This document shows, piece after piece, positions 3,401 to 46,347 of a stretch of DNA of 64,000 nt. This DNA comes from Sphagnum magellanicum (lineage: Eukaryota > Streptophyta > Sphagnopsida > Sphagnales > Sphagnaceae): positions 9,206,146 to 9,270,145 of the forward strand of contig CM038921.1 in the NCBI GenBank assembly GCA_021904315.1, in the 5' to 3' direction. Every line of letters begins with the position of its first letter. Within the stretch, counting starts at the first letter, position 1. A program made the translations under genes and the position numbers. The notes beneath the pieces are model-generated. The model made no database searches. It had not been told where the DNA came from and was given only the letters and a program-made list of their open reading frames with translations.

Positions 3401-3590
3401 CACATTGTTCCTTTGTTTCTGAAACTCAAAGAACATTTGTAGCCCTCCACCTAGCACTTTAGATGTCACAAAAATTGTTCAATTTGATAAAGGAATTGGG
3501 GAAAATATGGGATGTTTGGTGTAAGAGGGTTCAATGTTCAACAAGTGGCTCTATCACGAGAAGCTCTGTCTTGAAAATAAGAAATTACAT
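3400..3590 (+). repeat. Diverged direct repeat, left copy (partner at about 17875-18060)
   Basis: The stretch with the pieces CTCAAAGAACATTTGTAG, GTCACAAAAATTGTTCAATT and GAATTGGGGAAAATATGG reappears in the same orientation at about 17.9 kb with roughly one change in five and small indels. The two copies bracket the Helitron-containing block. The family is unknown. Confidence 0.6.
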
Positions 3591-4959
3591 TTAATGTTTT
3601 ACTATGAACTCAAGTTATATTGGATGAAAGTTTATTGGTTTTATGAAAAATCATTAAAATTTATTTTTCACATTTGTACTAAAAAATAAAGTTTTCTAAC
3701 CATCTTAGAATTCATTCTACATGTTTAGAAATTGAAACCATAGTTTCATTATCTTTTCTTTAATCATACAAATGAATATAAAGTTGTAAATAATTATATT
3801 ACTTAAGAAATTTTATATAATTTAGACAATTTTTAGCAATGTGCATGAAGTATTTCGATGTTTTGAAACAAACATCAATATTGAATGGATATAATTTACA
3901 TGGAAAGATTTTTATTTTTTGTCTCATTTTCATTTTGAATTTTGAGAATTTGACATTTTTTATATTTGTTTTTGTCAAATTTTGGGTTTAGGTTTTTTAT
4001 GAAAGGTATATTGTTACGATGTCTGATGGGTGTATGTGTGGAGAACAATCATTCAAAAATGTTGTGTTGGTATTGATATTTATGTTTTTTTTTGCATGTA
4101 TGGTCCATGAAAAAAATGTAAAACTACAAATTCAAGCCACAAGGTGCCAACATTTTTGGAGTAATTAATTAGGTGGAAAATGCAACATCTACATGCATAT
4201 TTTCACAAACGTTACACTTTAAATAAATGGAGACATTAATGGTTTTTTGTTATATATTGGAAGTGTGTTTGGTAATTTGAATGCAATATAAATTGGTTTG
4301 TGAAAATCTAACCAATATGTTTTTTTTACATTAGATTTGCATTCATTTCCAAAGATAATTGCCCATATATGATAATTGGGGTCTAACTTTTGTGATGTTT
4401 TCACTAAATTGTGATTTTAATTGGAATTTATCCATGAAATATAATGGTTCTTGTTTATTTTTCGGTTGGTTATTGTCTTTTAGATTATTAACATTAAAAT
4501 CTCCCATAATGATGATTAAAGAATGTTCAAAAAATTGTTAAATTATAGTTTGAAGATTGTTTAGGAATGTAAAAATTGAACATGAATGAACTTTATACAC
4601 ACATACAATATATATACTTTTCATGTATTAATATAAAAAGTTGTTGCTATATAATTTAAACCATCATTAATTATTGTATTTAAGGAATCTAAGTGCATGT
4701 GTATGTCATACATCATCATTAACCCATGACCATTATGCATTGAAATATATGAATACTTTGATGAATTTTATAAATTTGTGCACATCTATTGATGCATGGT
4801 GTATTTTTGTTTTTATAAAACATAAGATATGAGACATTTGAAGGTTATGATCATGATTGATGGATTCGTAATGTTGGCATAAAGAAGTTGTATTCAAGGG
4901 TTGTATAATTACATGAGAATTATGTAAGTTTTTTAATTAAAAAATTAATAGTGTCCAAG
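3591..4959. other. AT-rich DNA, no gene seen
   Basis: The composition is very AT-rich with little CpG. It lies just downstream of the helicase C-terminus of the minus-strand Helitron, so its 3' terminus (CTRR preceded by a hairpin) should be here, but I could not identify it. Short ORFs are chance or antisense. Confidence 0.5.
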
Positions 4960-7900
4960 TTGTAATTGTTTTCAATCTATTCATTTCTACATGTACTCTT
5001 AGATCCACATAAAAAATTTCATGTTGGAAAGGAACTAACAAGAATTATTTTTCTTTTGTTTGAATGGGGGATAATACTATATATGTTAACCCATGTTTTT
5101 TTAATGTCAATGGGATCAAAACCAATTCATCTAACGATAATCCATGAGAATGATGAATGGTTCTTGTTATTGCAAGTTGAATTGGAAATTGAATCCTTAT
5201 TATGATAAATGATTGGAATTTACCAATTCTTATATCTTTGAAGATAGGTTCAATTGGTGTCCATTTTTATTCAATGTTGTAATCATAATAATGATTATAC
5301 TTTTCTCTTATTAGTGTTCCAATTATAAAATTTTGAACATTATCCATATAATATTTTTTCACAATATGTTGTTAATGTTTTTAAAATGTCATCAACTCCA
5401 TTCACAATACCATCAAATGTTGCATAGTTATTAGCACATTATTTAACCGACACATCTATTTTTTATATTGATTATAGAGTGTAAACCTACAATTTTACTT
5501 GGATCATTTGAGAGTTTATAAGATGGCAGGCATGATTGATGGTTGATGTCCACTGCTTTGAAAATAACAGTGGGACCAAATGTGCTAGTAAACACATTTT
5601 CATTGTGTTTTTGCATAAGTTTAGTTGTATAAAATAAATGCAAAATAGTAAAATTGTTGGGTGGTTATTGATTACAAATTAAATTTATGGATTTAATATC
5701 CTTTTTATTTTATATTGCAGTATGATTTTTTTTCAAAGTTTGTATAAAAACCATATCAAACATAACTTTATTTGGTTCATAACATTGGACATATGTTTGC
5801 CAAAAAATTGGTGATAATGCATTAACATTATCTTTGATATTTTGAAAGATTCAACTATCTTTCACAGGGGGTGCTTGATAAAATTCATTTATCATGATAA
5901 CATCAACACCACCAAAAAAATTGTTTTGAATGTGTTTTATGGATCTTAGCATATTATTTACAACATTAAACATTTTAACACCAACAAGTGATATTTCATC
6001 TATCACAATAAATTGTAAATGTTCATATCGACATGTAAGCCTATTTAATAAGTTTGATGATAAGTTTAATAAACTAGATAAGGATTGTTGGACAAGTATG
6101 TTCAATGCTAAATGTATTGTTAAGCCGTCAATATTGAAAGCATATTTATTTGTTGATGCCATAAGTAAAACCTTGGTTTTTATTAAGTCAGGAAGATATG
6201 TCTTTATTGTATAATCATAATAATCCTTAAATTATGAGTTTCAATGTAAAAGTTTTACCAATTCCAACACCCCTTGTCAAAAATAAACATATCAATGTAT
6301 CAAGGTACAATTGATTTTTATGCACAACAATATCAAATATTAATATTTTTTTTCATTTAATTTTCTAAGTAAACTATGATATTCAAATTATTGCATCATT
6401 ATGAAATATGATATTTTGTGAAATTTTCATTTTCTAAAAATTGTGATTTTTGGTCTAATCCATTACATGATTGAATGACAAAGTCAAATCATAAATCATA
6501 GTGTTCAAAATTAATTGTGTTTATTACAAAAACTGTAGGACGTCGATCATTTACTTCATTATTTACATCGTTAGTCCAAATGTTCGTTGAATACAATGGT
6601 TTCGATTTTGATCTATTAACTCATTTAGCTCTTTTGTATTTGGACATGACATTTAATAATTCAAAATAGATTTAATCTTAGAAATGTCATCATGTTGTTG
6701 ACAATATGCATCATGCTAAATTACATTAGTTCCAAATTAAGAATTTTTTGAATTTTGAAATGGTGAATGTAATAAAACTTGTTTTCTTGACCAATTTTTA
6801 ATATATTTATTATAATTTACAAACCTAATAATTTTGGGTTTGTGATGTTTTGAATTTTCTTAATCTTATAAAAGAACTAAATTCTACTAATGACAACGAT
6901 TCATATTGATTAGGACAATTAATATATTTGTTTATGATCAATCAAAACATTATATTAGTTGAATTTGGTCTAATTCATTTAATGGAACTTGTGATTTTAA
7001 CACAAAAACATGTTTTTTAAAAGGGGAAATATTTATGAATTGAAATGTTTGAAATGAATGATATAATGGTAAAGAAAGCACAAGGTAAGTAACAAGTTGA
7101 GCAACCATTTGTTGGGCATTAAAAAAAACATTACCTAACTTTTGAATTCTTGTATTTGCATATATATTATTTGCAATGTATTTTTTTACAATAGACTATA
7201 GTTATGATGTTATTGATTTATTTATTTTTGTCATATATGATGTGCAATATGTTATACTTGCATATGGGTCCAAGATAAATTGAATATTTGTATTTGCAAA
7301 CCACAAATGAATAACAAATATATTAAATGCATTATTTTTTATGTTTTTAAGAGTTCATTTTAAGAAAATGTACAGCTCTGTTAATTTAATTTTAAAACTT
7401 AATATATATGTATTTTCACCAAACTTTAAATATTTTAAATATTTTAAAAATGATATATCATCATTTTTAATAAATATTTTAAAGATTGAAAAAAAAAATT
7501 GCTTGTGTTTAGAGGTATTATTGTGAAAATGGATAATTTCCATTTATTTGAAAAGGTTCTAAAATTTTTGTTTGAAGCATAGGAGGCAATGGGTAATGAA
7601 ATTTACAAACAACATGATTTTATTTTTTACATGTACATGTATGTTCATGTTATTGTGCATTTCGTCATGGTTTTGATAACAATGATACATCATTAGAAAT
7701 ATACATGTCTATAAATTGTTCAATTTTTTCATTTGTGTGTACTCCATACACAAGCGCATTTTTTATTGATAAAAGTCCATGGTCATGTAAGCTACCATGA
7801 TTTTGGAATTTAATGACAAAATATATATATATATATACCCAAAAAATAATGATCTTTTGTGATAAGTTTGCGAAAACAAAATGTTTTATCATAATATCTT

Positions 7901-10535
7901 GCACATGTGACAGGGTTAATTCGTATTAATTCTACTGTACAAACAAATTGGAGGTCTTTTATTTTATTTGAAAAAATTAATCTTGAAGCATGTAATGTGT
8001 GAAAAACTTTAATGAAAGGATCCCATAATCTTTCAGTAAATGTAAAAATGACAAAGAACGTTGGAAGACCAAATTGTCAAATCACTACAAATAATTTTTT
8101 TCACAACCTTTGAAAATATTCAAATGAATTACACAAAATTTCCAAATAATGATAATTTAAATATGGTTTGAAAATATTACCTAAATTTGGTTTATATTGT
8201 ACTTGATAAACTTTTAAAGTTCTACCACATAGTTTTCCATTTCATATTCACACCCAACTAGAACCTATGATTTTTTAGATGGAAATTTTAACAATTTTTT
8301 TAAATGTTAGAAATATTTGTTGAAAAATCCCCAGATTTATGAAATAATTCCCATTGAGTTATTTGTTGATATGAAAAACCTTCAAAAAATTGTCGAGGTT
8401 GCCCATAGAACAATGTTGGAATATTTAGTTCTTTTGAATGTTTATATTTAAATAAACCTAAAAAATGAAAGTTTTGATTTGGGGCAATGGAATATATAGT
8501 ATTTTCATAATCCATTATTTTTGGAACATCTAAAAACTTATGTATCATTGAATTTGTTGGTGTACAATGTATTTAATTCTCGTCAAAAGTAGAGTTATTA
8601 AATGATGCATTATTATAAGTAGGAATTTGAAAATTTGAATCCATATGCAAAGCAAACAAACTTGCTCATTGATGATGAATGCTAACATTCAAATCTTTAT
8701 ATAATGGTGTTTCAATTAAATCTCGTAAATTGATCATCACCATATTTGACAAACATTTCTTAACATATAAAATGATTTATATTCAAGACGTCATTTAAGA
8801 AATGCATCTATTGTTTCACCATCATGTGGTAAATGTGGTAATATTGATTAAGTTTGATCCACATTTGCAAGGACATCAATAACATTACCATGCATTTGAT
8901 ATTGCTCATACCCCTGGAGTTTATAAATTTGAGCAAAAGCAAAACGTGGTGAAATAAAACATTTTTATAATTGTGTTAATTTTTGGATTAATGGAATAAT
9001 TTTGTTTCTAGAAATTTTATTTGGTACTTGATATAAGGGTGGTTTATTTTCAGTAATATGACATAAACAACTTGTACATATTTATGATGTTGAATTAGGT
9101 TGTATTTGAATTTGAAAATATATAGAAAGTTGTTTTGACAATTGATTTGAAAAACATTTAAGTTTTTTTTAAAAACATAACTAAAACATGGAATTATGGG
9201 AACACCTTGGATTTTTTAATTATAAATTACAATGTATATTGAATTATGTGTATTTTCCTTTATATTAACATCATGTTCTATTTTATTTGATTCAACATCA
9301 TGTTTTGCAAAAAGTTGTTGTGTGGAAATTAGTTCTTTAATTTCTTTTAGAGTGCATTGAACATATGACAATTGAACTTTGTCATTTATGAAATATTCTT
9401 GTGATTTTCTTGTCTATATATTTCATGTGATTCATAATTTGTGATCTTGTTATTTTAATATTTAAAAACATGTTGATGAATTTAAAGATTTTTGTGTAAT
9501 AAGTTAGATTTGGACAAACCGCTAATAATTTAAAAATATTGTTGTCATAAAATGCCCAATCAAAATATTCTTTTTTTCTTTTTTGTGTTACATTAGGTTC
9601 AACAATCAAATGGGAATGTTCCATTTGAATTTTGGAATTTTTAAAAATTTGATAAAGTGAATTGAAATGAAAGGATTAAACAAAATCTCATTGACATGAA
9701 CTTTTGTGTTGTTTTTCAAAAACAATTGTAAGTATTGAATATAATTTCTAATTTATTTTTTAATAATATTTGTATAACAAGAAGTGTTAAACAATGAAAC
9801 AACATACTCCAATGGTGAATCCTAATTATTTTTCAAAATGTCCATTAATACATAATCAAAATTTTCATTTCAATAAAAATGTGTAGTTAATTATGATAAT
9901 TGAATAGGAGGTTGTCGCATCACTAATTCTGAAAGATATGGAAAATCATTTAAATTTATGGTAACTTTGGAATCATTAACTTGAAAAGTATGCAAAAACC
10001 TAAATAAACCATTAACATATTGAATTGGTTCAAAATGTTGAGAACTGTACATTATTTGTAAGGGGATAGATTGAAAATTCATGTCGCATCGAAACATAAT
10101 GTGTTTTGATACTTTATTTCAAATGTAAACTAACCTTTGTAAATATTCAACTATTCAAAATATTGTAGTGAAATTTCCCCACAAACCTCCCATAGTAGTA
10201 GTTAATGCCATTTTTGTCACATATTAATGTTCATTTGTGACCATGCCTTGATGCAAATCAAACAAAAAACTTGGATTTAATTTTCAAACATGACTTTGTT
10301 GGGTTTTTTTTATATTCAATAATAAACATTGATTTAAATGTGCCATGTTATTTTGGCTCAATTCAAGATATGATAAATGATTATCCAATAAATATGATAT
10401 ACAATCAAAAAGATAATTGTTTATTTCATATTTACATGTTGAAACTAGATGAAGGCCACATGAATGCAATACATGTTCAAATGATGAATCAACAAGATTT
10501 AATGAAGGTGTTTCCATTATTATTAACTTCAATTT
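4960..10535 (-). pseudogene. Helitron Rep/Pif1-helicase (RepHel) pseudogene with OTU-like N-terminus
   Basis: The reading moves between frames and crosses stops, but the order of parts is clear. About 10480-10100 is an OTU-like protease region (LFDCISYLLDN, later GGLWGNFTTI). About 10097-8850 is a Helitron N-terminal region (RFAFAQIYKLQGYEQYQMHG). 8548-8300 reads YSIAPNQN and FYGQPRQFFEGFSYQQITQW. The Rep HUH motif is LHDHGLL, with HDH at 7787-7779. The two-tyrosine motif YCTSY lies at 7249-7235, followed by MTK. The Pif1 helicase Walker A GVGIGKTFTL is at about 6276-6250 and Walker B FIVIDEISLVG at about 6010-5985, then FFGGVDVIM and FYQAPPVKDS. The C-terminal helicase motifs HSHGLSLDELV, KKHGLTYIVL and FYVDLRVHVEMN end near 4966. 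In-frame stops lie just after Walker A, and the OTU GNC-type active site reads NNY. The intact family would nick and unwind DNA for rolling-circle transposition; this copy cannot. Confidence 0.88.
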
Positions 10536-10649
10536 AATGGATATTTATATAAACAAAAACATTGTTCCCACATAAACACATTAAAAATAAATAAAATCGA
10601 TGACTAATTGAAGACTATTTACTTTTTTCTCTTGTTTTTTTTGAAAAAT

Positions 10650-11130
10650 TTCTTGCATTGAAAAACTTTTTATATTGGAAATTTACTTAACTAGAAAAAT
10701 TGCTTGAATTAAAAAATTGATAGCATTGAAAAACTTTTAATTAAAAAAATATTAATGTTAAAATTTTGCATATATTGAAAAAAAAATTCATTGAAAAACT
10801 ACTTGCATTGAAAAACTATTTATATTGGAAAATCATTTGCATTCAAAATCTACTTGCATTAAAAAACTATTTTCATTGAAAAAAATTGCTTGCATTACAA
10901 AACTATTTTCATGAAAAAAACTATTACATTGAAAAAACTACTTGCATTGAAAAATTACTTTCATTGAAAAAAAATCCTTGCATTGAAAAACTACTTTCAT
11001 TGAAAAAATTATTTACATTGAAAAATTGTTTGCATTCAAAAAACTAATTTCATAAAAAACTACTTTCATTAAGAAAAATGCTTCCATTGAAAAATTGCTT
11101 TCATTGAAAAATTATTTCACATACAAAATG
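10650..11130 (+). repeat. Degenerate minisatellite, unit about 17-20 bp (TTGCATTGAAAAACTACT-like)
   Basis: More than 15 imperfect copies of a TTGCATTGAAAAACTA(C/T)T motif follow one another, separated by small A-run length changes. The tract lies just upstream, in the transcription sense, of the RepHel pseudogene, between it and the RPA-like fragment. No coding is seen. Confidence 0.75.
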
Positions 11131-11571
11131 TTGCATTTAAAATTATTTTTGGCATTTGATGGAAATTAATGTATAAGAACTTTCGTTTCTTCTATAAAAA
11201 AACTATGAAAATGACTATACAATATGGGTTATTTAAACCAAATTTTGATATAGGGAGTTTCCACATATATAAATTTTCATATACTAAAGGTAATTATAGA
11301 AAGGTCACACAAAAACTATCAACAACCTTAATGTCTAAGAGGATTTTTATTTAAAAATTGATTTTGATTCAACAAAATCAAATTTGCGTTTCACACTCCA
11401 TTGGACATTATCATTAGGAATAATTGTCGAAGGAGCAACCAAAGTTTCGCCCTTCAAACTGGTTTTTGGTTGTGGGATAAATTGTTGGATGTCTTTTTTA
11501 AAGCTAACAAGGGCAAATGTGGTCAATAAATGAAATTTACCATGAATATGAATTGAAATGAAGAATTGAAC

Positions 11572-11844
11572 TTATTTTGGACAAGGCAAATCCAAGAATT
11601 CGGATTCTGTCATATGCATAATTGCTTCAAGCCATTTACTCTCAATAATCAAGAACACAAGTTCATCATTGGTTACAATGTAACCACGAAAAAAACTTAA
11701 TTTTTGAATTGTTGATTTTGAATGACAAATGTTACAATAAACACCGCATGTTGGATAAATGTTGACATTTGTTACATGACAACTTCCACGTGCTTTTTGA
11801 AATGGAGGTGTAGTAGGGCTAGCTATGGACAACACTCTAGTCAC
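11572..11844 (-). pseudogene. RPA-like zinc-ribbon/OB fragment (Helitron-associated)
   Basis: The 90-codon open stretch contains YPTCGVYCNICHSKSTIQ, a zinc-ribbon-like cysteine cluster, then FFRGYIVTNDELVFLIIES. This resembles the RPA70 DBD-C-like fold found in plant Helitron RPA ORFs: a zinc-binding knuckle inserted in an OB fold. It lies on the same strand as the RPA-like OB region at 14933-15669 and is probably its C-terminal part, now separated by about 3 kb of repeats. No start or splice evidence was found. Assignment to RPA is inference from pattern and context. Confidence 0.5.
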
Positions 11845-11859
11845 CTAGGAACAAAAGAT

Positions 11860-12990
11860 AATATGTTCAAATGAAAAGGTAAATGAAGATGAACATAAAC
11901 ATAAAGAAATGTGCAAAAAAGGTAGATCAATCAAAAAATATATAAAACCATGCACACACATACATATAATATGTAAATAAAAAAAATGAAATGCATAATA
12001 AAAGATGTTATGGAAACATAACAAGGCAAAGAATTAAGACCTAAAGAAAAGACAAAGAATAAGATTAAAAAAATAATAACAACAAAAGAAATATATTTGT
12101 AAGAAAAAGGTCATTCAAACATGGAAAAAACCATTATACCCCCTTCTTTCAAACCATATATCTCTTTTATTCGTTATTTTTAAAAAAAGATTTAAAAAGC
12201 TATGGGCTGAAATTTAAAGCTTTACAAATGGTCTTGGACATGCAAAAACATTAGACCTATATATATATATCTTAAGCTTCAAAAAAAAAATTGGTTTTTT
12301 TATGCTTAAACCTTACATTTTCACCTCCTTCACTTCCATAAGCCACATCTTGTCCATTTAAAAACTAATTCTAGTGATTTTTATGACATTAGATGCACCA
12401 AGAGAGGGGCTACAAAATCTTTTAAATGTTCAAAAGCTATTGACCAATGTGGACAAAAATATATAACTTTATTTATAAGGGATTTTCACATATTTGTTTA
12501 TTTCCCATATTGAAATTACAATATGTTATTCTTTGAACAAATACATTCCAAACTTTTTATCCCATATTTTTTACCCAAAAACGAATTCCATTAGATTATA
12601 TAGAGACAATTTTTTCACTCCTAGTATTAACATTGTATTTTATGTTTAGTATATAATAGAACATGGATTTTTGTTCTTTAGAGATATAAAATTAAAAAAA
12701 GTCATATCAATGTAATTTTATTTTCTATAGATCATTTTAGTCAGGAAAATTATGTGACCACCCGATTATCCCCTCCTCAAGGAACAAAAAAACCAAATGG
12801 TTCTTTTTGCTTTTTTTATATTAGATTTGGGTCTCTTCTTTTAAAAGAACCAAATCTCCTTAGGAAGAAGTGAATTGGGTTGGGCATTTGAATCTCCTTA
12901 CTACTTAGGCAAAAAAAAAAGTTTGAACCTAGATTGCAAAAGACCATTTGGTTCTCACTCGATTGATTTTTTATTTCTTTTTTTTCGTTT
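11860..12990. other. AT-rich DNA without gene
   Basis: Poly(A)/poly(T) rich DNA with a short TA run near 12262 and a stretch at 12795-12965 with repeated CCAAATGGTTCT/AGAACCAAATCT-like words in both orientations. No coding recognised. Confidence 0.5.
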
Positions 12991-12994
12991 AGAA

Positions 12995-14640
12995 ACCTAG
13001 TGGCCACCAAGTCGCTCCACGCTAGATTGTGAATGACAACTTGTTGGCCACCAAGTCATTCCATGTTAAACTACGAATGATGATTTGGTGGCCATTAGGT
13101 TGGTTTTTTTTTTGCTTGGAGACCTAATGGCCATTAGGTCATTTGATGTTGGACGAAGGATGAATTACTAGCCACAAGGTTTCCAAGTGAAAAGTTAATT
13201 AATTAATTAATATTTTTTGGCTCTTGGAAACTTGGTGGCCACCAAATCATTTGACGCTGGATTCTGAGCGACATGGTGGCCACAAAGTTGTTTAACGTTG
13301 GACCGTGAAGGACAATTTGGTGGCCACTGGGTTGTTTTTTTTCCCCCACTTGGAGACTTGTGGCCACTAGGTTGTTCGACGTTGGATTGTGAGGGATGAC
13401 TTAATGGCCACTAGGTCGTTTGATGCTGGATTGCGAGAGATGACCTAGTGGCCACCGGTTACGCACTCCCAAGTCCCTTGTTGAACCCACTTGAGGGTCT
13501 AACTATGTAAAGTTGCGGAAAGTTGAGACTTGAGAGGCGCTATCGACTTCCAGCACTAAAAGGGGTAGAGGGGCATGCTAGAAGTTTCAGGATTAGACTA
13601 GGAAGATGGATTAGAAAATCAAGCTTGAATCTACATCCAAAACCAACCACAAGAGGGTTAGTTAGCATTCGGGAACACCCTTGGGTGTTGGGACAAGCCA
13701 CGGGCACTTTTACACACAAGATTCATCACAGCCCGGACTCGGGGGAAGCCACCACCTTCCCCCATATAGTATACTATGCAGCTCTCCGCCAAGGCTACAT
13801 CCAAATGGCTATTTTTCCCGGGACTCCCAAGTTGAAGCCCTGAAACTGTCCGGGGTTGGAGTCCCGAGACTTTGGACGCTCATAGCTCCTCGCTCCGAAC
13901 TCAGATCTGGACAAGGTCTAAACCAAAGTTGTAGCTCTCGTTGAGAGCTTTCCAACGTCGTATCGCACTCCTTGAGGCGACGTCGGGAAGAGGTCGATTC
14001 CTGACTTTTAGTGGTCGGGAGTCAAACTGGCAGTTTGATTCCTGGCCCTTCTTTTGCCCATAACTTGGGCTACAGATGTCCAAATGGCCCATGTGAGGCC
14101 ATTTCGGGCATCTACACTTCAAGAGATTTCCATTGATATAAAGAACACACAAAGGTGAGGAGATTTGACCCCTCAAATCGTCTTCTAAGTTTTCGAGAGT
14201 CCCAGAGGACTCCATTTTTCCCACTTTTGGGAGTGTGAGTTGCATTCTCACACTTAGCCCCAAAGTGGGGTTACGATAACCAGGTTTTTTTGTTTAGAGA
14301 CCTGGTGGCCACCAAGTTATGCGACATTGGATTGCGAAGGATGATTTGATGGCCACCAAGTCATCCCTCACAATTTAACATGGAACAACTTGGTGGCCAT
14401 TAGGTCTCCAAGTGAAAATAACCCCCAAAAAAAAAAAAATTTGACTTGGTGGCCACCAAGTTGTCTCTTACAGGTCTCCAAGCAACAAAAAAAAAATGAC
14501 TTAGTGGCCATTAAGCCGTCCCTCGCATTCTAACATTGGATGATTTAATGGCCACTAGGTCTACAAACGAAAAAAAATTTGATTTTAATTTTTTTTTGTT
14601 TGGAAACCTAATACCTAGCAGCCACAAGGTGGTTTCCATC
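12995..14640. repeat. Palindromic minisatellite / fold-back array built on ACTTGGTGGCCACCAAGT
   Basis: The array is made of units of about 45-100 bp carrying variants of the 18-bp palindrome ACTTGGTGGCCACCAAGT. Each is followed by a spacer such as GTTCGACGTTGGATTGTGAG and by TTGGAGACCTAATGGCC. In the left half (about 12995-13457) the spacer runs one way. In the right half (about 14276-14640) the spacer also appears reverse-complemented (CCCTCACAATTTAACATGG), so the whole block is a large imperfect inverted repeat. It is interrupted by the 0.8-kb element at 13464-14268. Confidence 0.75.
13464..14268 (+). mobile_element. GC-richer 0.8-kb non-coding element (copy A), flanked by GGTTACG repeats
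   Basis: This block is much richer in G+C and CpG than everything around it and splits the palindromic array. The 7-mer GGTTACG is found directly at both edges (13457-13463 and 14269-14275), as expected of a target-site duplication. It starts CACTCCCAAGT and ends CCCCAAAGTGG, so CACT/AGTG lie at the ends, though the inverted repeats are weak. A hairpin GTGTGAG-N7-CTCACAC lies at 14233-14254. The segment 13725-14267 is homologous, in inverted orientation, to 51574-52125. Open frames inside (e.g. 13523-13843) match no protein. It could be a solo LTR or a non-autonomous DNA element. Confidence 0.65.
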
Positions 14641-14932
14641 CTCGACTTTGAGAAACCGCCTACTGGACCACCTCAGAAAATTAAATGAACACCCAATTTT
14701 TTTCGACATTAAAAAAAAAACATTTTGAAAATTTGTTTTTCATTACATTTTTAAAAATTATTCATTATTTTTTTAAATATAATTGATCATGAGATGAAAA
14801 TTAGGTTATGTTTGATGTTTTATGTGTAAATTTGAAAAAAAATTAAATGATGCAAAGGAAAGGAAATGAATTTACCTTTTTGAATGGAGATTGAACACTT
14901 GATAATTTATTGTGTAACTATATAAAGCAAGT

Positions 14933-15669
14933 TCAAGTACCTTCGTCAACAACCTTTGTTAAAATTGTGTAATGTTTTACCCTCGAATATTGATCTCCTT
15001 TTGTTGTTGTTGTCACATTTTTTATTAAAACCATTACACAATGGCCTCCATTATATGCTTCAAAAAGTTGTTCATATTTTGTTTTGAAGTTGTTACAAAG
15101 AGTAAAAATGTCTTGGTCAAATTCACCTTCTCCATTTGTAATCAACAATTGCTTTTCACATTTACTATCCCCTATTCCCTCTACAACAATGACGATGATA
15201 GCACTGGTAGCAAACCTCCAATTTTGAATAGAATTTCTAAATTCCCTAATGGAATCCATGTGAAAAAACATGGGAATTAACTTAGGTTGGAATGTAGGAA
15301 TTGATGACACAATGGTTGTCGATTCAATTGTGATGACAACATGCATGTCACCTTTCTCAAAACCTCTTTTAGACTTTGATTTAATGCCAAAATTTTCCAC
15401 CTTCACAAACATGCCTTTTTGCAAATGTTGCTCATGCATTCTATATAAGGCGATTTCACCTTCAAAGTGATTGTGGTAAGAGCTGCCTTGTCCAACAAAT
15501 CACAATGCAAATATGTATAACTTGGATTTTCCATGCTCTTATTTGCAATTTGATCAAAAGTGCCATACCTATTGAACACTTTTGCCTCAAATGCAACATC
15601 TCTAATTCCGAAATCCAAATCATCCACCATAACAACCAATCTAGTCTCCTTCATTAGAACAATAACCAT
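14933..15669 (-). pseudogene. RPA70-like single-stranded-DNA-binding protein, OB-fold region, frameshifted
   Basis: Reading from the ATG at 15669, VDDLDFGIRDVAFEAKVFNR and YLHCDLLDKAALTTITLK look like the first strands of an RPA OB fold. Near 15460 the frame shifts to EGEIALYRMHEQHLQKGMFV, KVENFGIKSKSKRGFEKGDM and later FDQDIFTLCNNFKTKYEQLF, to a stop at 14933. The shift falls inside an otherwise continuous domain, so a single-frame defect is likelier than an intron. RPA-like proteins bind ssDNA; Helitrons of plants often carry such ORFs. The strand and position upstream of RepHel support that origin. Confidence 0.6.
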
Positions 15670-15779
15670 TGTGGAAAAAAGGAAAGAAGAACTTACCAAA
15701 ATGAATTTGACAACACAAATGAAGTAGCACTTGGCAAAACTAAAAGTTGCAAAAACACATGACAAAACATGCACTTATA

Positions 15780-16617
15780 AAAACACATATTTGCAAAAGA
15801 AGTAAAAAAATAGTCAACAAATGGTGAAAGCTTAAATTAAATACAATGTTCTTATTGTGAAAAAAGAAAGACAACAAACATACAATGTTGTATTTATATG
15901 GGAAAAAGACCTAACTTAAACCCTAAACTTAACTTAAAACCTAACCCTGAACTTTTTTTTATTTTATATTTACTTTAAGTAATTTTGATTATGGTTGGTT
16001 TCAACTTAACAATAAAATATCATATCCATGGTTTGATAGCTAAATTATGGTCTAATAATGAATAAGACATCAATACCCTTGACATTTTATAAATTTTAAT
16101 TATTGACTTTCAGTAACTTTGACTATGGTAGATATCTACCATTAACCATGGATATTGATGAACCATGGTTTGGTGGTTAGATTGTGGTCTAATAATGAAA
16201 AAAACATTCATACCCTTGGCATCTTAAGAATTTGAATTATGCACCTCATGCTTACACTTAGACTTTAAATATTTCAACTTAGATTTGAAAGATATTAATA
16301 CATAAACCTTAAATTTTTCTCCACTATTTGACCATTCTTTTCATTTCACTCAAATATAATATTATTATTTGTTAAACGCCAACTTTTTTTATCATGTACA
16401 TAAAAAAAATTAAACACACAAAAAAATCACAATTGATTTTTTTCCCCTTTTTTGGTTAAATGTATTAAGTGTTCAATTTTAAACAAAATATTTTTTGTTC
16501 TTTCAATTAAATTTTTAGAATAAAATTTTTGTGTTGAAAATTTCCCATTCCCCAAAAAAAGATATTATTTTTTATAAAATATTTTCTTGAGAAAAAATCT
16601 TCATTAAATCATTATAT

Positions 16618-16664
<47 letters not shown>

Positions 16665-17870
16665 CATCTGTTTTCTCCAAACACCCCATCCCACACCACT
16701 TAAAAAAAAATTCCTTGGAGAATTAAAACAACCAAACTTTTACCTCCCATGCCACCCAAGAAACAACCCTTTGACTTAAATCCACATTCCCAAAACAATT
16801 CACCTATCCCAATCCCTTAAAAAAAAACCTCTTTTGGAATGGGGTGAAATTACCCCATCCTCCCCTCTTCACCCAAAAAAAAACCCTTTTGCAAAAGAAA
16901 AAGAAAATTAACCCTTTGTCCCCTTTTTTTTAAAACTCCACTTACAACTTGTAATTCTTTCAATTTAATTAAATTATCCACTCCTTATACCTATTAAAAC
17001 CCTATAATAAAAAAACAAACTCATGAGAGAGGAAAATAAATAAATTAACACTGTTGCTCTCCTTAAAATTTCACCTATAAACCCCAACGTACCCCCAACC
17101 CAACTTTATAAACTAGCTGTGTTTACCCCATGCATGCTTGTTAAAACCTAAAATCATACATGCATATCTACTATTTGAGGGCAATAATTTTTTTTATAAC
17201 ATAAAAATTTATTAAATCTTCACCAAAGCCTTATTGAAGGTTTTAAAATAACATCAAATTAATTAAAAACATTTATATCTCAAAAAAATTATATTAAATT
17301 ATATATTTATTTTAAAATTGACGTATTTTATCTTAATCAATTCTTGCATAATTTTTCAAATCTCATTTTAATAAGATTTAAAACAATTGAATCAAATTAT
17401 TTGTATGTTTATCAAACAAATTTCGTTTAAAAAATTAGTCATATGAAATTTTTTAACATTTCATAGTGATATTAAACCTCCTGATACAAAAAGGCAAGTA
17501 ACAACCCAAAAATAATAAAATGATATAGAGACATGGTTAAATCAGTTACCCAACATTCATATTTTGAGAAGAAACCCAATAAGTAAATGGGTAGATTTCA
17601 AAACAACCCATCAATTGGATGGCTGCACCCAAAATCTACACATGCCCATCCATTTGCTTGGGCCAATATAAAAAACTTACACACAAACCTGTAACCTTAT
17701 CCATTCACCCAACTTTTGATTCTCCGACCCCTATACCTGCTCAGAAGGTGTTCCCACAACAGCCTTTGTAGGACAGAGCCAAGAATGAGTGAATTGAAAC
17801 CAATTAGGATTTTGAGCTTAAAATCTTAGAGCTATTTTTTCAAAAAAACTGAAGTAAACTATCACTCATC
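15780..17870. other. AT-rich intergenic DNA, C-poor then C-rich skew, no gene
   Basis: This stretch includes CCTAAACTTAAC-type degenerate telomere-like words at 15920-15955, a 44-nt poly(A) run, and a conspicuously pyrimidine/adenine-skewed tract (16665-17130, many CCCC and AAAA runs, few G) downstream of it. No conserved coding seen. Confidence 0.5.
16619..16662 (+). repeat. Poly(A) tract, 44 nt
   Basis: An uninterrupted run of A. It could be the tail of a LINE/SINE-type retroposition ending here on the plus strand, but no upstream retroelement ORF or duplicated target site was recognised. Confidence 0.9.
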
Positions 17871-17874
17871 CTCT

Positions 17875-18060
17875 TTCTATGTTTTGCTCCTTTACTTCTC
17901 ATGCTCAAAGAAAATTTGTAGACCTCAAGTTTGTGCATCCAATGACACAAAAAAAATTTCAATTTGATTAAGGAATGAGGAAAATATTGGAAAGTGTTTG
18001 ATGATAAGTATGTGCTCGGTGATGGGTGGTTCTACCCTCTGTAGTGTCAATTTGAAAATT
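17875..18060 (+). repeat. Diverged direct repeat, right copy (partner at about 3400-3590)
   Basis: CTCAAAGAAAATTTGTAGAC, ATGACACAAAAAAAATTTCA and GAGGAAAATATTGGAAAG correspond in order and spacing to the copy at 3.4 kb, in the same orientation. See the finding for interpretation. Confidence 0.6.
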
Positions 18061-40343: not shown

Positions 40344-40751
40344 ATGAATTCAGGCGCATTGCAGCCTGTGGAGGAAAGTCCTGAGAACTATGGTGGTGGT
40401 TTGTTTTTCTTGGATACCACCCATTGTGTGGTGTGGAAAATTCACACACGCTGCGGAAAAATGTTCGGAGTTTCGTCCATGGTGTGTGTGTTTTCCCGGA
40501 AAACCTCCCGGACTAGAGTAGTAGTCGGGGAGTCGGAGAAAACCGACTCGGGGAGTCTTCTTCACGATGGTTGGCAGAAGCTTTGTCGTCTCAGTTCCTT
40601 TGTGTTGGAGAGGGAAACTGTACAAAAGAGTGAAGCGGAGCGAGCATCTTTGGTTGTGTTGTTGAAGCTTTGTTCTCCTTTTCCTCCTCTCTTGTTGGAA
40701 GATCACGAGAATTTGGGATTGTCAGCGGTGCCAAAAGAAAATTGGTGCTGA
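40344..40751 (+). other. Upstream open reading frame / 5' leader of the metacaspase gene
   Basis: A 135-codon frame starting MNSGALQPVEESPENYGG ends just before the GA tract and the metacaspase ATG. It has no family resemblance, and the antisense frame is open as well. It may simply be GC-rich leader or, if transcription starts upstream of 40344, a translated uORF that would reduce downstream initiation. Confidence 0.3.
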
Positions 40752-40756
40752 ATTTC

Positions 40757-40758
<2 letters not shown>

Positions 40759-40814
<56 letters not shown>
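40759..40814 (+). repeat. (GA)28 microsatellite abutting the metacaspase start codon
   Basis: Twenty-eight uninterrupted GA units whose final A is the A of the ATG at 40814. GA-rich leaders in plants are bound by BBR/BPC GAGA-binding factors; such a role here is inferred. Confidence 0.9.
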
Positions 40815-40816
<2 letters not shown>

Positions 40817-43800
40817 TGTGGATCTCGAACGGGAAGCATGTCCAGGGATATCAAGAAGAAGGCCCTTTTGGTAGGGTGCAACTATCCAGGCACTGGAAAA
40901 GGAGAGCTTACTGGGTGTTGGAACGATGTTCAATCTATGCGTGAAACCCTAATCAACCGTTTCGGTTTCAATCCGCAAGACATTTGGGTGCTCGTCGACG
41001 AGCCGCAGCAGTCCCTACAACCTACAGGGGGAGTCGTAAAGTGGTATTTGGAGGAACTAGTTCGCGATGTGCAGGCACGTGATGTTTTGGTCTTCCACTT
41101 CAGTGGCCATGGTGTTCAGGTGGGTGTGCAAAATGCAAACTGTAGACCGTAAACCCTATTTCTAGTTTTTCACAGGCTACACTAGACTGCACCCATTTAC
41201 TACCCATGTCGCTCGGATTCTTTGTGCGCAAAATGCAAACCCTAAACCCTAAGCTAGTAGAGCCTCAAAATTACACTACACTACACCCATGTACTACCTA
41301 TGTGTCTTGGATTCTTCCTTTTGTCAGCAAAAGGTCTCTAGGATCTTCAGATTCAAGGAACATCTCCACATTCCACTGCTGCACACTATCCAACACTCCT
41401 CCTCCCTTGCAAGCGCCTATATCTTTGAAGATGTTACTTCAGTCCCAGTTAGGTCGTAATAGATGATTTATCTCCAACTCACTTGTTTGTGTGTTGGGGT
41501 TGGAAAGTCTCGTATAGGACACTAAATTCTGTCACTATTTTTGTTGTCATGCTCAAGCCCATTTTGACATATCTGTAGGGCAATCTTAACATACAGGCCC
41601 CAGGTCATGCATTCCTCAATTATCAGTGTTGTGCACCACGAGCTTGCAGTTCAAAATGTCTGTTGAGTTGCAGAACTCTTCGACCTATTTGAACTGCACA
41701 CACACACACACTCCCTCTCATGCACATGAGCAATTCACCAGCCTTAACAATCAGCTCAAATCATGTAGGTTGCAGAGATAATGCATGGAGATGATTCTGG
41801 ATATATCATTTACTAATAAGATCTCTAATGTCCAGAGTTTGCTTATTTTGTGCCAGTTACCACCAGAGGGCGAACCTGATGAGACTGGTGCTCATGAGTG
41901 CATAATCTTGACTGACAAGAATGTTATCACAGGTTTGCTTATGCCTGCCAACATTATCAGTATTTTTGGTGTTTCTTACAGTTGTGCTAAGAAGTTTCAA
42001 ACACTAAGAGATTGTACCATTGGATCAGAGCTGCTGAGAAGGTTCCATGTTTTGAGTGCTAGCAGTCTTGGCCAGCTGAGTTCCATCCATTGGCAACTGG
42101 GATCCCTTAACCATCTTCCTGAGTTTTATTATGTTCTTGTAAGTCTGCTTTTGATAGATTTCAAGAGCATGTAAGAGATGCAAAAAGATTGTCTAACTGT
42201 GCTTGTTCGTCTTTTGATTTTAAGCTATTATATGCTGCCACAGCCAAAGAGGGTTTCCATTCCTTCAGAGTCTTTCCTATTGAAAAAGTAGACAGGAATT
42301 TCCTGGATTCTGTGGGTCATTTGATCTTAATTTGTTTAAGCTTGCAGCTTCTCAATTGGAAAGAAAATTGATGGGGATTTTACACACTTTATTTCCAAGA
42401 GGATATAACCTAGAAGGCAAGTCAAACAATAGAAGATCTCCTAGGGTACGTAAAGCCTCTGCAATGTTGTGGAGAAAGGGTTGTAAACCTTCCTTTGTTC
42501 GTTCTAATAAAAAAGTTTGGGTTCCTGTCAATGTTCATCCCTGTCTCTCTGTAAGTCTTCCTCTCCCTATTTCACCAATTCTTGAGGAGAATGGTTCATC
42601 TTCTAATGATGTACAACCAGATCCTAGTTGTAACCCACATCTTTCTTCTCACAGAGTTTGTAGCTACAGAGATTACAAAAGAAGACTGGTTTTTCTTTCT
42701 GCTCTTATGTCTTAAGGTAAGTTCTCTATTGCTTTTCTCTCTAAGAATAAAACCATTGGTTTATATGCTTCTGTTGTGGTCTGAGTTTTCTCCTTGTATT
42801 CTTCGTATCGACATTAGCCATCCTTTGCGACTCTCTAGAATTTTGAGCCATTTTATTGAAAGAAAAGTTCCTGTCAAGTGCCTGCTTCCTGGCTAAAGAT
42901 CACATTATCTCAATCTTTGTTTCTTCTCATTTGAATAGTTTACATCTATCTTCCATTCTAAACCTTCCTTCTGTTTTAGATTGTCTTCCTTCCATTGTTG
43001 GAAAGTTTTGTTCCCCTCCCTTGGTTGCTTGGAAATATGTTAAGACTTTTGGCAAGAGTTTTTCAGCTATAGGGAGTTGGGAAGGTCTGTTCATGCTACT
43101 GAAGTTCATAAAAAATCATGCTCTCTGGTTGTGATTGTAACTGGACCCTATGTTGATTCCCACCATGGTCATTCCTGCAAATCTTGACATCCTCTCAAGG
43201 CCTAGTTGGATTGAACTCTTTTCTAGAGGCACAAAGTTCAAAAGAGCTTTATTGTCTCACTTGTCTATTGAAGAAGCTATTGAGAAAGGTCTCAAGAAGT
43301 TTGTCAATAAACAGGAAGAACTTCTAGGAGTTCAAGGGATCTTGAGTGAATGGAAAGCCAAAGTTCTTTTGATTGTGCATAAGAGGACCTGTTCTTTCTC
43401 TGTGGTTCAATCCTCTTCTAATTTGTTTTTGTCAGTTCCTTTAGGGGATTTGGATTGCCTACAGAGTCTCCAGTGTTCCTCAGTTATTACTTACATGGAT
43501 AAATGTAGTAATAATTTTGTGTTTGTTTGTTAGAGGTTCTATGTTTTTTCAGTTTTCTTTGAGCTTAATTCCCCAATTGGTACTTATGTGGTCTCTAATC
43601 TTGCCCAGTCTGACACCCTGAAATCTCATCTTTCTTTTAATAAGGCTGATAATTTTAGAGGTGGAAAGTGTGGCCTCATCTTCTGTTTCTTTGTGCTGTT
43701 TGGAAGTTTCATAAAAATCTGATTAAACCTAGATTTATTTGTGCAGCCAGCTCTACTTCTCTTACTGAAGTTTCTAAGTGGTTTTCTTTCTACAAAGCTA

Positions 43801-46347
43801 TTTTTCCTATGGGCAATGACCTTAGGGTGTTGAAACTTAGGAAAGCAGATGTTCCTTGTGTTAGTAATTGGATTCTAAATGATTCTACAGGAGTAGTGGA
43901 TTTAATAAAACAACTTAATCTTTCAAGATCGGAAAAAAATTCTCCACTCCTGTTGTAGTCTTTTGATTTCTCAACTCTATACACTAAATTGACCTAATGG
44001 ATCTAAAAGTTTGTATGAAAGTGCTGATCAATAAAGTGTTTCATTGCATGTTGAAACTTCATCGTTTTAAGACTTTGCTGGTTCAAAGATCTGCTTTGAA
44101 CTTCAGGTTTTTGTGGTTTGCTTGAAAATCTTCATAGCTTTAAAGTTATGGAGGCTCCAGATTTGATCTCTTGGTTGAATTTCTTGCTAGATAATTTCCT
44201 TCTTTCTTTTGGTCATTGTGCTTATAGACAATGTATTGCTATCCCTGATGCCCTCTAGTCAGAAGGATGGGTGCTTTGGTTGTCATTAAGTATTGTTTTT
44301 TGTCTTCGAACAGATATTGACTTCCGTGTCCTTGTGGAGAATCTACCTTATGGGGTCGAGTTCACTCTCATAGCCGACAGCTGCCATAGTGGAGGCCTTA
44401 TTCAACATCTAGAGGAGCAGATTGGTAGTGGCCCTCAATTTCAGCGACCTCCAGATCAGAGCAACTTGGAAACCTCTACTGGGAGTGGCTCATGGTTCCA
44501 TACTTGGCTTAACAAGGAGCACCAGCAGGTTGGACCTGGGCCATGTGGATATTCAGGAGTACATTGCCAAGGTTACAGTGGATCACATTTTGCTTATGCT
44601 GAAGGCAGTAGTGGAAATGATCATGTGGGCACTTATTCTCAACCTCAACTAAGTGTTCTTGAAAAGTAAGAAATCTAACACCCCTCACCTTTCTCCCTTC
44701 CCTTTTCCCTGAATAAATCCAATGCACAGCCTTAATAACTTGCAACTTCTTAATCTAACATGGGGTTCATTTTGGTCTTGTATCCTGCAAATTGCTCAAG
44801 ATTGTCTTCAGACAAAGCAGTCTATAAGGTCTACATGTCTCTCTTCACATTCCCCGCTCTGTTGTTTTTTCAGGTGATCCTGAGGGCCCTTTGGCTTCTA
44901 ACATACATTTCTCTTAATTTCCGGTTTCCCCCCAATGTTCTGCCATAAACAGTAGAATTGGGCTAAGTTATTGCTCATATGGCATTTTTGAGGCTTGAGG
45001 GTTAGGAGTTCTTCTCACTCATCCAGATGAAACAGGAGTCATTCAATAAAATCAACTGAACTTGTCTACTTTGTCTGTGTTTTAATTCACCAACAGGCAC
45101 AGAATGTACTGTCGTACATCCCGACAAGCTAGTTCTCGCTTGGTAAAGAAGTGTCTGACAGTGGACATGTTCATTGGAATGCTGAGCCAGCGTACACACC
45201 GTCAAGTGGAAGTTGGCAACATCCGGGCAAATCTCTATGACCTGTTTAAAGATGATGCTAGCATCATGGTCAAGAGTTTTGCAAGAAATATAATCTTGAA
45301 ATATAACCTCCAGGTTTTCGTGCATCCCTTTTTACCTGTGTTTCTGATGTGGCTGTCCAAGGTGAGTTTGAAGTTTCCACTCTTGAGTTGGTGGAGAATG
45401 TGTTTGTAAGGCTGTAGAATGACTGTAATGTTGTGACAGCTTGGATAGAGCAAGAGGGATCCTGCCACCTTAGCTTGAAGCCATGCTGTCTTGAGCTTTT
45501 GAAGAGGCATACCAAACTCAGGATGAACAGCTGCATTCACAGTTCTAGAACATGTCAACAGTCTTCATCTAACACCAAATGTTCAAAGGAACTGTTTGGA
45601 ATTGCTTTTTTTTGTGCATGCTACACATGCTAGTGATGTGTCTGATGATGCTACACTTAGTAGTCCTTTCTAGTCATTTGGTCTTTTTTCTGGAGTGACC
45701 CAAGAGCTTAGTCAACACCCAAGGCCTTGCATCTGTAGTTGGATTACATCTAGTACATGTCCCAATTACAAGTTGAGGAGAACTTGACCCAAATGTACCA
45801 TCCTACTGCCTTTTCTCTAGTCCCCTTCTCTTGACTTGGGTTCACTGAGCACAAGGTGACAGTTGCTGCCAAGTCTTAAATGAGACATATTGTCTTCCAA
45901 TTGGAGTTACTCTTTTTTTGTTGGTTCATCTATTGCTTCAAGAAGTTTGACCTCAGCATTTGGTTATGTGGGCAGGAAGACAACATGTTGAACACAACTG
46001 GCAACTTGGCTGCTCAGTTCCTCAAACAGAGACTGAAGGATGAAGGTAGGACTTACGCGAGGCCAGCATTTGCAGCAGTGCCGCAGTCTCTTGATACTGC
46101 AGCTTTTGATAATAAGTGTGTTCTGATCAGTGCTTGCCAGTCATATGAGGATGCTTTTGACTTCGGACAAGGCTATGGAATCCTCAGCAATGCAATTCAG
46201 ACCATATTGAGGCAACACAGAGACCCGATTGACAATTTCCGCTTGGTTCTGGCTGTAAAGACTCTGCTTAAGAATCAGGGGTTCCCTCAGCATCCCGGCC
46301 TGTATTGTGGTGCCAAGAAGGCCGATTCTGTATTCATTTGCTATTAG
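40814..46347 (+). CDS. Type II metacaspase (Arg/Lys-specific, Ca2+-dependent cysteine protease)
   Basis: Five exons give 440 codons: 40814-41119, 41857-41932, 44314-44665, 45097-45313 and 45976-46347. GT/AG borders and phases agree (0, 1, 2, 0). The p20 domain starts at KKALLVGCNYPGTGKGELTG and holds the catalytic His99 in FHFSGHG and Cys151 in ADSCHSGGLI. A long Gly/Ser/His-rich linker follows (about residues 165-245). Exon 4 carries the RLVKKCLTVDMFIGMLSQRT and VEVGNIRANLYDLFKDDAS segment typical of type II linkers. The p10 domain has KCVLISACQSYEDAF and GYGILSNAIQTIL and ends GLYCGAKKADSVFICY. Lack of an N-terminal LSD1-type zinc-finger prodomain and presence of the long linker place it in type II (MC4-MC9 group). 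Family members self-cleave on Ca2+ rise and act in wound and cell-death responses. The start could instead be Met9 (40838). Intron 2 (2.4 kb) contains retroelement debris. Confidence 0.95.
42780..44260 (+). pseudogene. Reverse transcriptase remnant (Penelope-like or related) inside metacaspase intron 2
   Basis: Broken frames on the plus strand read as one retroelement ORF. In order they give GPYVDSHHGHSC; NLDILSRPSWIELFSRGTKF; VITYMDKCSNNFVFVC, which resembles the VITxADK motif; WKFHKNLIKPRFICAASSTS, the 'K.HK.P.KPRFI' RT motif; NWILNDSTGVVDLIKQLN; SFDFSTLYTKLT, RT motif A; and LDNFLLSFGHCAYRQCIAIP, the region before motif B. The sequence ends there, before the YxDD box. Stops and frameshifts are frequent. 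The lineage is uncertain: the motifs resemble Penelope-like elements more than LTR or LINE RTs. No GIY-YIG endonuclease was seen. Confidence 0.7.

Follow-up and report, generated by a model that had tools for sequence, protein, structure and literature searches.

Does a rolling-circle transposon in a moss genome carry a genuine OTU-like protease region, and, if so, what kind of element is it and is it the plant's own? These questions are raised by a 64,000-nucleotide stretch of Sphagnum magellanicum (the window; GenBank assembly GCA_021904315.1, contig CM038921.1, C15:9206146-9270145 in our numbering), in which an initial annotation made from the sequence alone described a plant Helitron in which an OTU-like region precedes Rep. 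Our analysis indicates, with a probability of roughly 0.85, that the window holds a dead copy of an abundant Helentron-like rolling-circle family that has long been resident in this land plant, a peat moss, and that carries an OTU-like region. The element reads on one strand in the order extra open reading frame (ORF), OTU-like region, Rep (H-x-H), PIF1 helicase and AP-type endonuclease, and is bounded by ends common to other copies. Its parts are as follows.

3542..17782, minus strand: entire element of about 14.2 kb, with its 5′ end near 17782 and its 3′ end near 3542, set by the alignment limits of copies and accurate to a few bases
14936..15618, minus strand: extra ORF, made up of a 188-amino-acid open stretch (15499-14936) and, upstream of it, a piece in a different frame, collinear in copies L067 and L068
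9894..10517, minus strand: OTU-like cysteine protease region with Tyr at the Cys position and the His kept, from frame, profile rank and copies
7665..8076, minus strand: Rep domain (Helitron_like_N, PF14214) with an HDH motif at about 7779-7787
7235..7264, minus strand: tyrosine motif region PYASITYCTSY, aligned in copies
5440..6300, minus strand: PIF1-type helicase (PF05970, 4.4e-13, over cut-off)
4331..4966, minus strand: AP-type endonuclease (Exo_endo_phos_2, PF14529, 9e-5 in a single-frame reading)

The words quoted in the initial annotation (LFDCISYLLDN, GGLWGNFTTI and YLQRLVYI) are all present in a single minus-strand frame that runs from 10544 to 9891. Its 217 codons include 4 stops where 17.8 would be expected, the other two minus frames have 22 and 19, and as few stops were seen in 19 of 20000 Markov sequences for the same frame and in 79 of 20000 for any of three frames. 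Because stops are so few relative to expectation, the minus frame at 10517-9894 is the remains of an old coding frame. A hidden Markov model (HMM) built from five cellular OTU domains, drawn from PDB alignments, ranked this tile first among the 1164 six-frame tiles of the window, and 2 of 5000 residue shuffles scored as high. Leave-one-out models placed it first or second in four of five cases and seventh when OTUD5 was omitted. The match spans the half from Trp-Gly to His with the His in register, and the spacing of 48 residues between these two points lies inside the cellular OTU range of 47-50. Within the reading, LQIMYSSQHFEPI is the top-scoring His stretch, and 2 of 127924 window positions reach its score; INNYLFDCISYLL is likewise the top Cys stretch of the reading but is no rarity in the window, where 50 of 127924 positions do as well. 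The Cys half of the window reading is INNYLFDC.

Since Pfam OTU does not match the window copy itself, relatives are needed for the case. The window reading was aligned with 21 of the 29 loci L026-L054, giving 22 rows; the loci left out (L040, L045, L046, L048-L051 and L053) are mostly shorter matches. Common to the rows are the words EIGNCLF, GGLWGDF and HFEP. The active-site Cys column holds Cys in 11 of 22 rows and Tyr in 8, the window among the latter, while the first Gly column holds Gly in 12 of 22 and the His column His in 20 of 22. This bears out the suggestion that the NNY of the window is a decayed GNC. In addition, Pfam OTU (PF02338) matches 7 of the 22 rows at E ≤ 0.1, the best at 1.6e-5, so that the profile search that the initial annotation had proposed as a check fails for the window copy and succeeds for some of its relatives. 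At the level of the family, the copies thus display the profile and the catalytic Cys and His of a predicted OTU cysteine protease; the window copy alone shows neither the profile match nor the Cys and keeps the His. As judged from sequence, the observation of an OTU-like region upstream of Rep was right and is confirmed.

The relation between this region and Rep was followed through the host genome (438,994,042 bases, 31 contigs). The OTU reading gave at least 156 matches (the best 150 of 468 candidates scored), and a Rep-side piece gave at least 150 (the best 150 of 299 candidates scored).

8303..8572, minus strand: N-terminal Rep protein fragment that served as the probe in the host genome search

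Linkage was counted among the matches listed, namely 150 of the 156 OTU matches and the 150 Rep matches, which merge into at least 131 OTU places on 19 contigs and at least 139 Rep places. At 75 of the 131 OTU places, a same-strand Rep place follows 0.5-8 kb further downstream; the distance is less than 2.5 kb in 69 of these 75 and has a median of 1733, and 2 neighbours are discordant. A further 64 Rep places have no OTU partner among the matches listed, and many copies are fragmentary. The same-strand linkage shows that the OTU region is part of the element and not a chance neighbour. The copies taken in full were chosen for carrying OTU and are silent on how often the family is without it.

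The class of the element follows from its remaining domains. A Rep motif search of 12 loci gave 8 good matches which, with L056 and L062 being the same place, represent 7 distinct copies, each with H-x-H, and the PIF1 helicase is matched in L057 at 1.3e-12. Rep and PIF1 helicase are common to Helentrons and to canonical plant Helitrons (Helitron1), and by themselves they would suit a canonical element that had acquired an OTU region. Behind the helicase on the same strand, however, lies the AP-type endonuclease, found in the window copy and in two of the three other copies examined (L055 at 3.3e-7 and L057 at 2.8e-8, both over the curated cut-off); the third, L056, lacks most of that stretch and gives no PF14529 match. 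A small endonuclease HMM ranked the window tile first of 1164, a score that 2 of 5000 shuffles equalled or passed, but gave a multi-frame composite of the same region only 1.7 bits. That composite matched no Pfam domain, and the decayed frames show no continuous helicase-endonuclease reading. The available sections of PMC4067079 give an AP endonuclease C-terminal to the helicase as the defining mark of Helentrons. Furthermore, a canonical Helitron would end in CTRR at its 3′ side and have no endonuclease, whereas the 3′ end here is CTTG in four copies. Because an AP-type endonuclease stands behind Rep and the PIF1 helicase, the element is, by a class read from its domains and without a Rep tree, Helentron-like and not the plain Helitron of the initial annotation; a canonical Helitron with an added OTU region is unlikely. 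The span originally given, 4960-10535, misses both the endonuclease at 4966-4331 and the two ends of the element.

These ends are set by the copies. On the 3′ side, the alignments of L055, L056 and L057 all terminate at window 3540-3542; L057 is collinear with the window over 3540-10814 at 84.4% identity, and L058 is a partial copy that covers 6906-10883 only. On the 5′ side, the alignment of L068 reaches 17785 and an end piece of L067 terminates at the same place. The upstream part of the element, including the extra ORF at 14936-15618, is matched collinearly by both L067 and L068, and L069 gave no alignment to it. The terminal features are two.

17770..17782, minus strand: 5′ terminus TTGGCTCTGTCCT, from comparison of copy ends
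3563..3572, minus strand: subterminal stretch that matches the element's 5′ end in inverted orientation, about 20 nt inside the 3′ end

An inverted match of 8-10 bases occurs in 4 of the 12 5′/3′ end pairs compared, a count made without a chance control: the window's own two ends share 8 bases, its 5′ end shares 10 with the 3′ end of either L056 or L057, and L067 and L055 share 8. This short match is only suggestive of subterminal inverted repeats. As regards the 3′ hairpin and TT target expected of a Helentron, predicted folds of four 3′ ends range from -4.5 to -16.6 kcal/mol, also without a control, and the flanks are T-rich in most copies. Just beyond both ends of the element stand direct repeats that are 75% identical (3405-3525 and 17884-18008), perhaps a host repeat that served as the insertion site.

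The initial annotation had also named an RPA-like ORF without giving its position, and we took 14936-15618 as the ORF meant. This extra ORF belongs to the element, as its collinearity in two copies demonstrates. Its RPA identity is another matter: Pfam returned nothing, or DUF223 at E 0.051, which is a hint only; the PDB search returned no significant match; and an RPA70 profile ranked it 73rd or worse, with 212 of 300 shuffles as high. By eye the ORF resembles two OB folds, and the RPA label is left unsupported by Pfam, PDB and the RPA70 profile.

Several observations weigh against reading the window element as a member of an OTU-bearing Helentron-like family. The Helitron_like_N match in the window (8.9e-5, 23.2 bits) falls below the curated cut-off of 28.9 bits, that in L056 (2.8e-5) is likewise below it, and the domain is absent from the Pfam matches of L057. 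The inverted terminal match is, as described above, short and uncontrolled. At 56 of the 131 OTU places there is no nearby Rep place among the matches listed. Within the window OTU reading, the distance from Cys to Trp-Gly is 78 residues, compared with 55-59 in the five cellular OTUs. In addition, the copy profile retrieved no OTU chain from the PDB, and PF02338, run over the whole genome, gave 22 scored candidates and 11 matches with E ≤ 0.001, none of the OTU-reading copies being among those listed. Together with the missing Pfam match of the window copy, these last two results would suit a different N-terminal domain that resembles OTU by chance. Set against such a resemblance, a profile-profile comparison of OTU with the 22-row alignment gave E 6.2e-5 and a score of 34.3, extended from Cys to His, was equalled by 0 of 300 column shuffles and had low cross-controls, and 7 of the 22 rows match Pfam OTU itself. 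We consider chance resemblance very unlikely.

The pattern of decay bears on how long the element has been in its host. CpG and CHG stand at 0.28 and 0.24 of expectation in the element, with the control GHC at 0.94, and CHG stands at 1.17 and 1.11 in two genic stretches of the window. Loss of CHG is a sign of plant-type CHG methylation. The CHG depletion therefore shows long residence under such methylation, and the element is long resident in a land plant. The window copy is inactive, its frames being broken and its C-to-T loss being that expected from CpG and CHG methylation. Animal or fungal DNA contaminating the assembly would have been a natural suspicion, given that most known Helentrons come from animals and fungi and that a few earlier plant matches were suspected contaminants (PMC4067079, in the text available). 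Nevertheless, the OTU places lie on 19 contigs of a chromosome-scale assembly, among the matches listed, and the CHG depletion is typical of plant DNA methylation, so that contamination is refuted for practical purposes.

Two further features lie within the element.

12978..14577, no strand assigned: GC-rich repetitive stretch, perhaps a nested insert, with related repeats there in L067 and L068
10620..11130, no strand assigned: decayed tandem array with units of about 17 and 18 bases, directly upstream of the OTU frame, aligned in copies

GC content is 0.48 in 13001-14000, and the rest of the element is AT-rich. In 1500-base bins across the window, observed over expected CHG is about 1.0-1.4 where the bins are genic and drops to 0.1-0.3 in most of those rich in AT, outlining old methylated transposons. 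Metacaspase-like gene pieces on the plus strand (40637-41152 and 45880-46344; Peptidase_C14 at 2.2e-13 and 0.0032) agree with a plant host, and a CNNM-like piece lies at 624-1151 on the minus strand (1.1e-6). No second Helitron was found inside the 64-kb window, Rfam and tRNA searches found nothing, and NCBIfam gave no match for 4 proteins.

Elsewhere in the host genome there is a second, distant OTU-like lineage: at L070:1050-1697, a 215-amino-acid open frame with MDCLF, GGLWGDF and NHFEP is 33% identical to the window OTU reading, has no Pfam match at 0.01 and is followed, by eye, by a Rep-like piece. PF02338 matches over cut-off also occur at C2:10991506-10991910 (L019) and C8:11291639-11292055 (L020); they contain 7 and 4 stops and are not among the listed copies of the window family. 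Scans of viral and genome contigs found no relatives beyond the host. One viral contig match, L001, was set aside as a bacterial or phage chance match by appearance, and 15 others (L002-L016) as phage-type Reps by appearance; their Reps carry the EFQxRGxPHxH signature common to Helitron-type Rep, and tblastn gave these contigs no match to the element better than E 0.32. A separate tblastn search of phages found nothing.

How the element would have worked is proposed because of its analogy with Helentrons and is an inference for the window family. Rep would nick and join single-stranded DNA, the helicase would unwind DNA and the AP-type endonuclease, as a second nuclease, may act at the target. 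The OTU domain may remove ubiquitin from transposition proteins, sparing them ubiquitin-dependent removal, or from limiting host factors. It is tempting to speculate further that non-angiosperm land plants host their own ancient, high-copy Helentron lineage, in which OTU counters ubiquitin-dependent host control and which was either gained horizontally long ago or kept since before the plant-animal split, a proposal that we regard as tentative and doubtful on balance. In any case, the family extends the Helentron-like class with OTU to a moss, at more than 100 places on chromosome-scale contigs and with a plant CHG mark. The set of copies allows the question of an origin by horizontal transfer to be asked, and the action of a transposon-borne OTU on plant ubiquitin becomes testable.

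Among known systems, the closest counterparts are the Helentrons as described in the available text of PMC4067079, which share Rep, PIF1 helicase and C-terminal AP endonuclease with the window element. Additional OTU and RPA ORFs are described there, where the window element has an OTU-like region and an extra ORF without confirmed RPA identity. Helentrons also have subterminal inverted repeats and a T-rich target; in the window family the short inverted match is suggestive of the former, and most copies have T-rich flanks. On the 3′ side this match stands about 20 nt in from the terminus, compared with 38-60 in mite elements. The same source found Helentrons absent from most plant genomes, whereas the window family is of high copy number in a land plant. 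Helitron2 (available sections of PMC4067079 and PMC5148889) is similar in its asymmetric terminal inverted repeats and its rolling-circle Rep and helicase but differs in having no endonuclease. Angiosperm Helitrons with RPA resemble the window element as plant Rep-helicase elements with, possibly, a single-strand-binding ORF; unlike it, they are described without endonuclease or OTU in the text available of PMC4683698, which among plants reports Helitron RPA from monocots and dicots only. For the OTU region itself, the parallel is with the OTU/VTD-bearing Helitrons of animals, in which, according to the accessible part of PMC9741609, a de-ubiquitinase-type domain occurs in a Helentron, as predicted for the window family. 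There, 121 VTD-containing elements also hold OTU domains, and de-ubiquitinase activity was shown for zebrafish Helitron VTD domains, transposon OTU domains being then still unassayed. Those VTD elements come from vertebrates, insects, cnidarians and molluscs, whereas the window family belongs to a land plant. Earlier literature, covered through its best-ranked items and few subscription papers, turned up no land-plant Helentron with OTU. The combination of Rep, helicase and endonuclease with OTU is already known, mainly from animals, and what seems new, as far as that literature shows, is its high-copy presence in a land plant.

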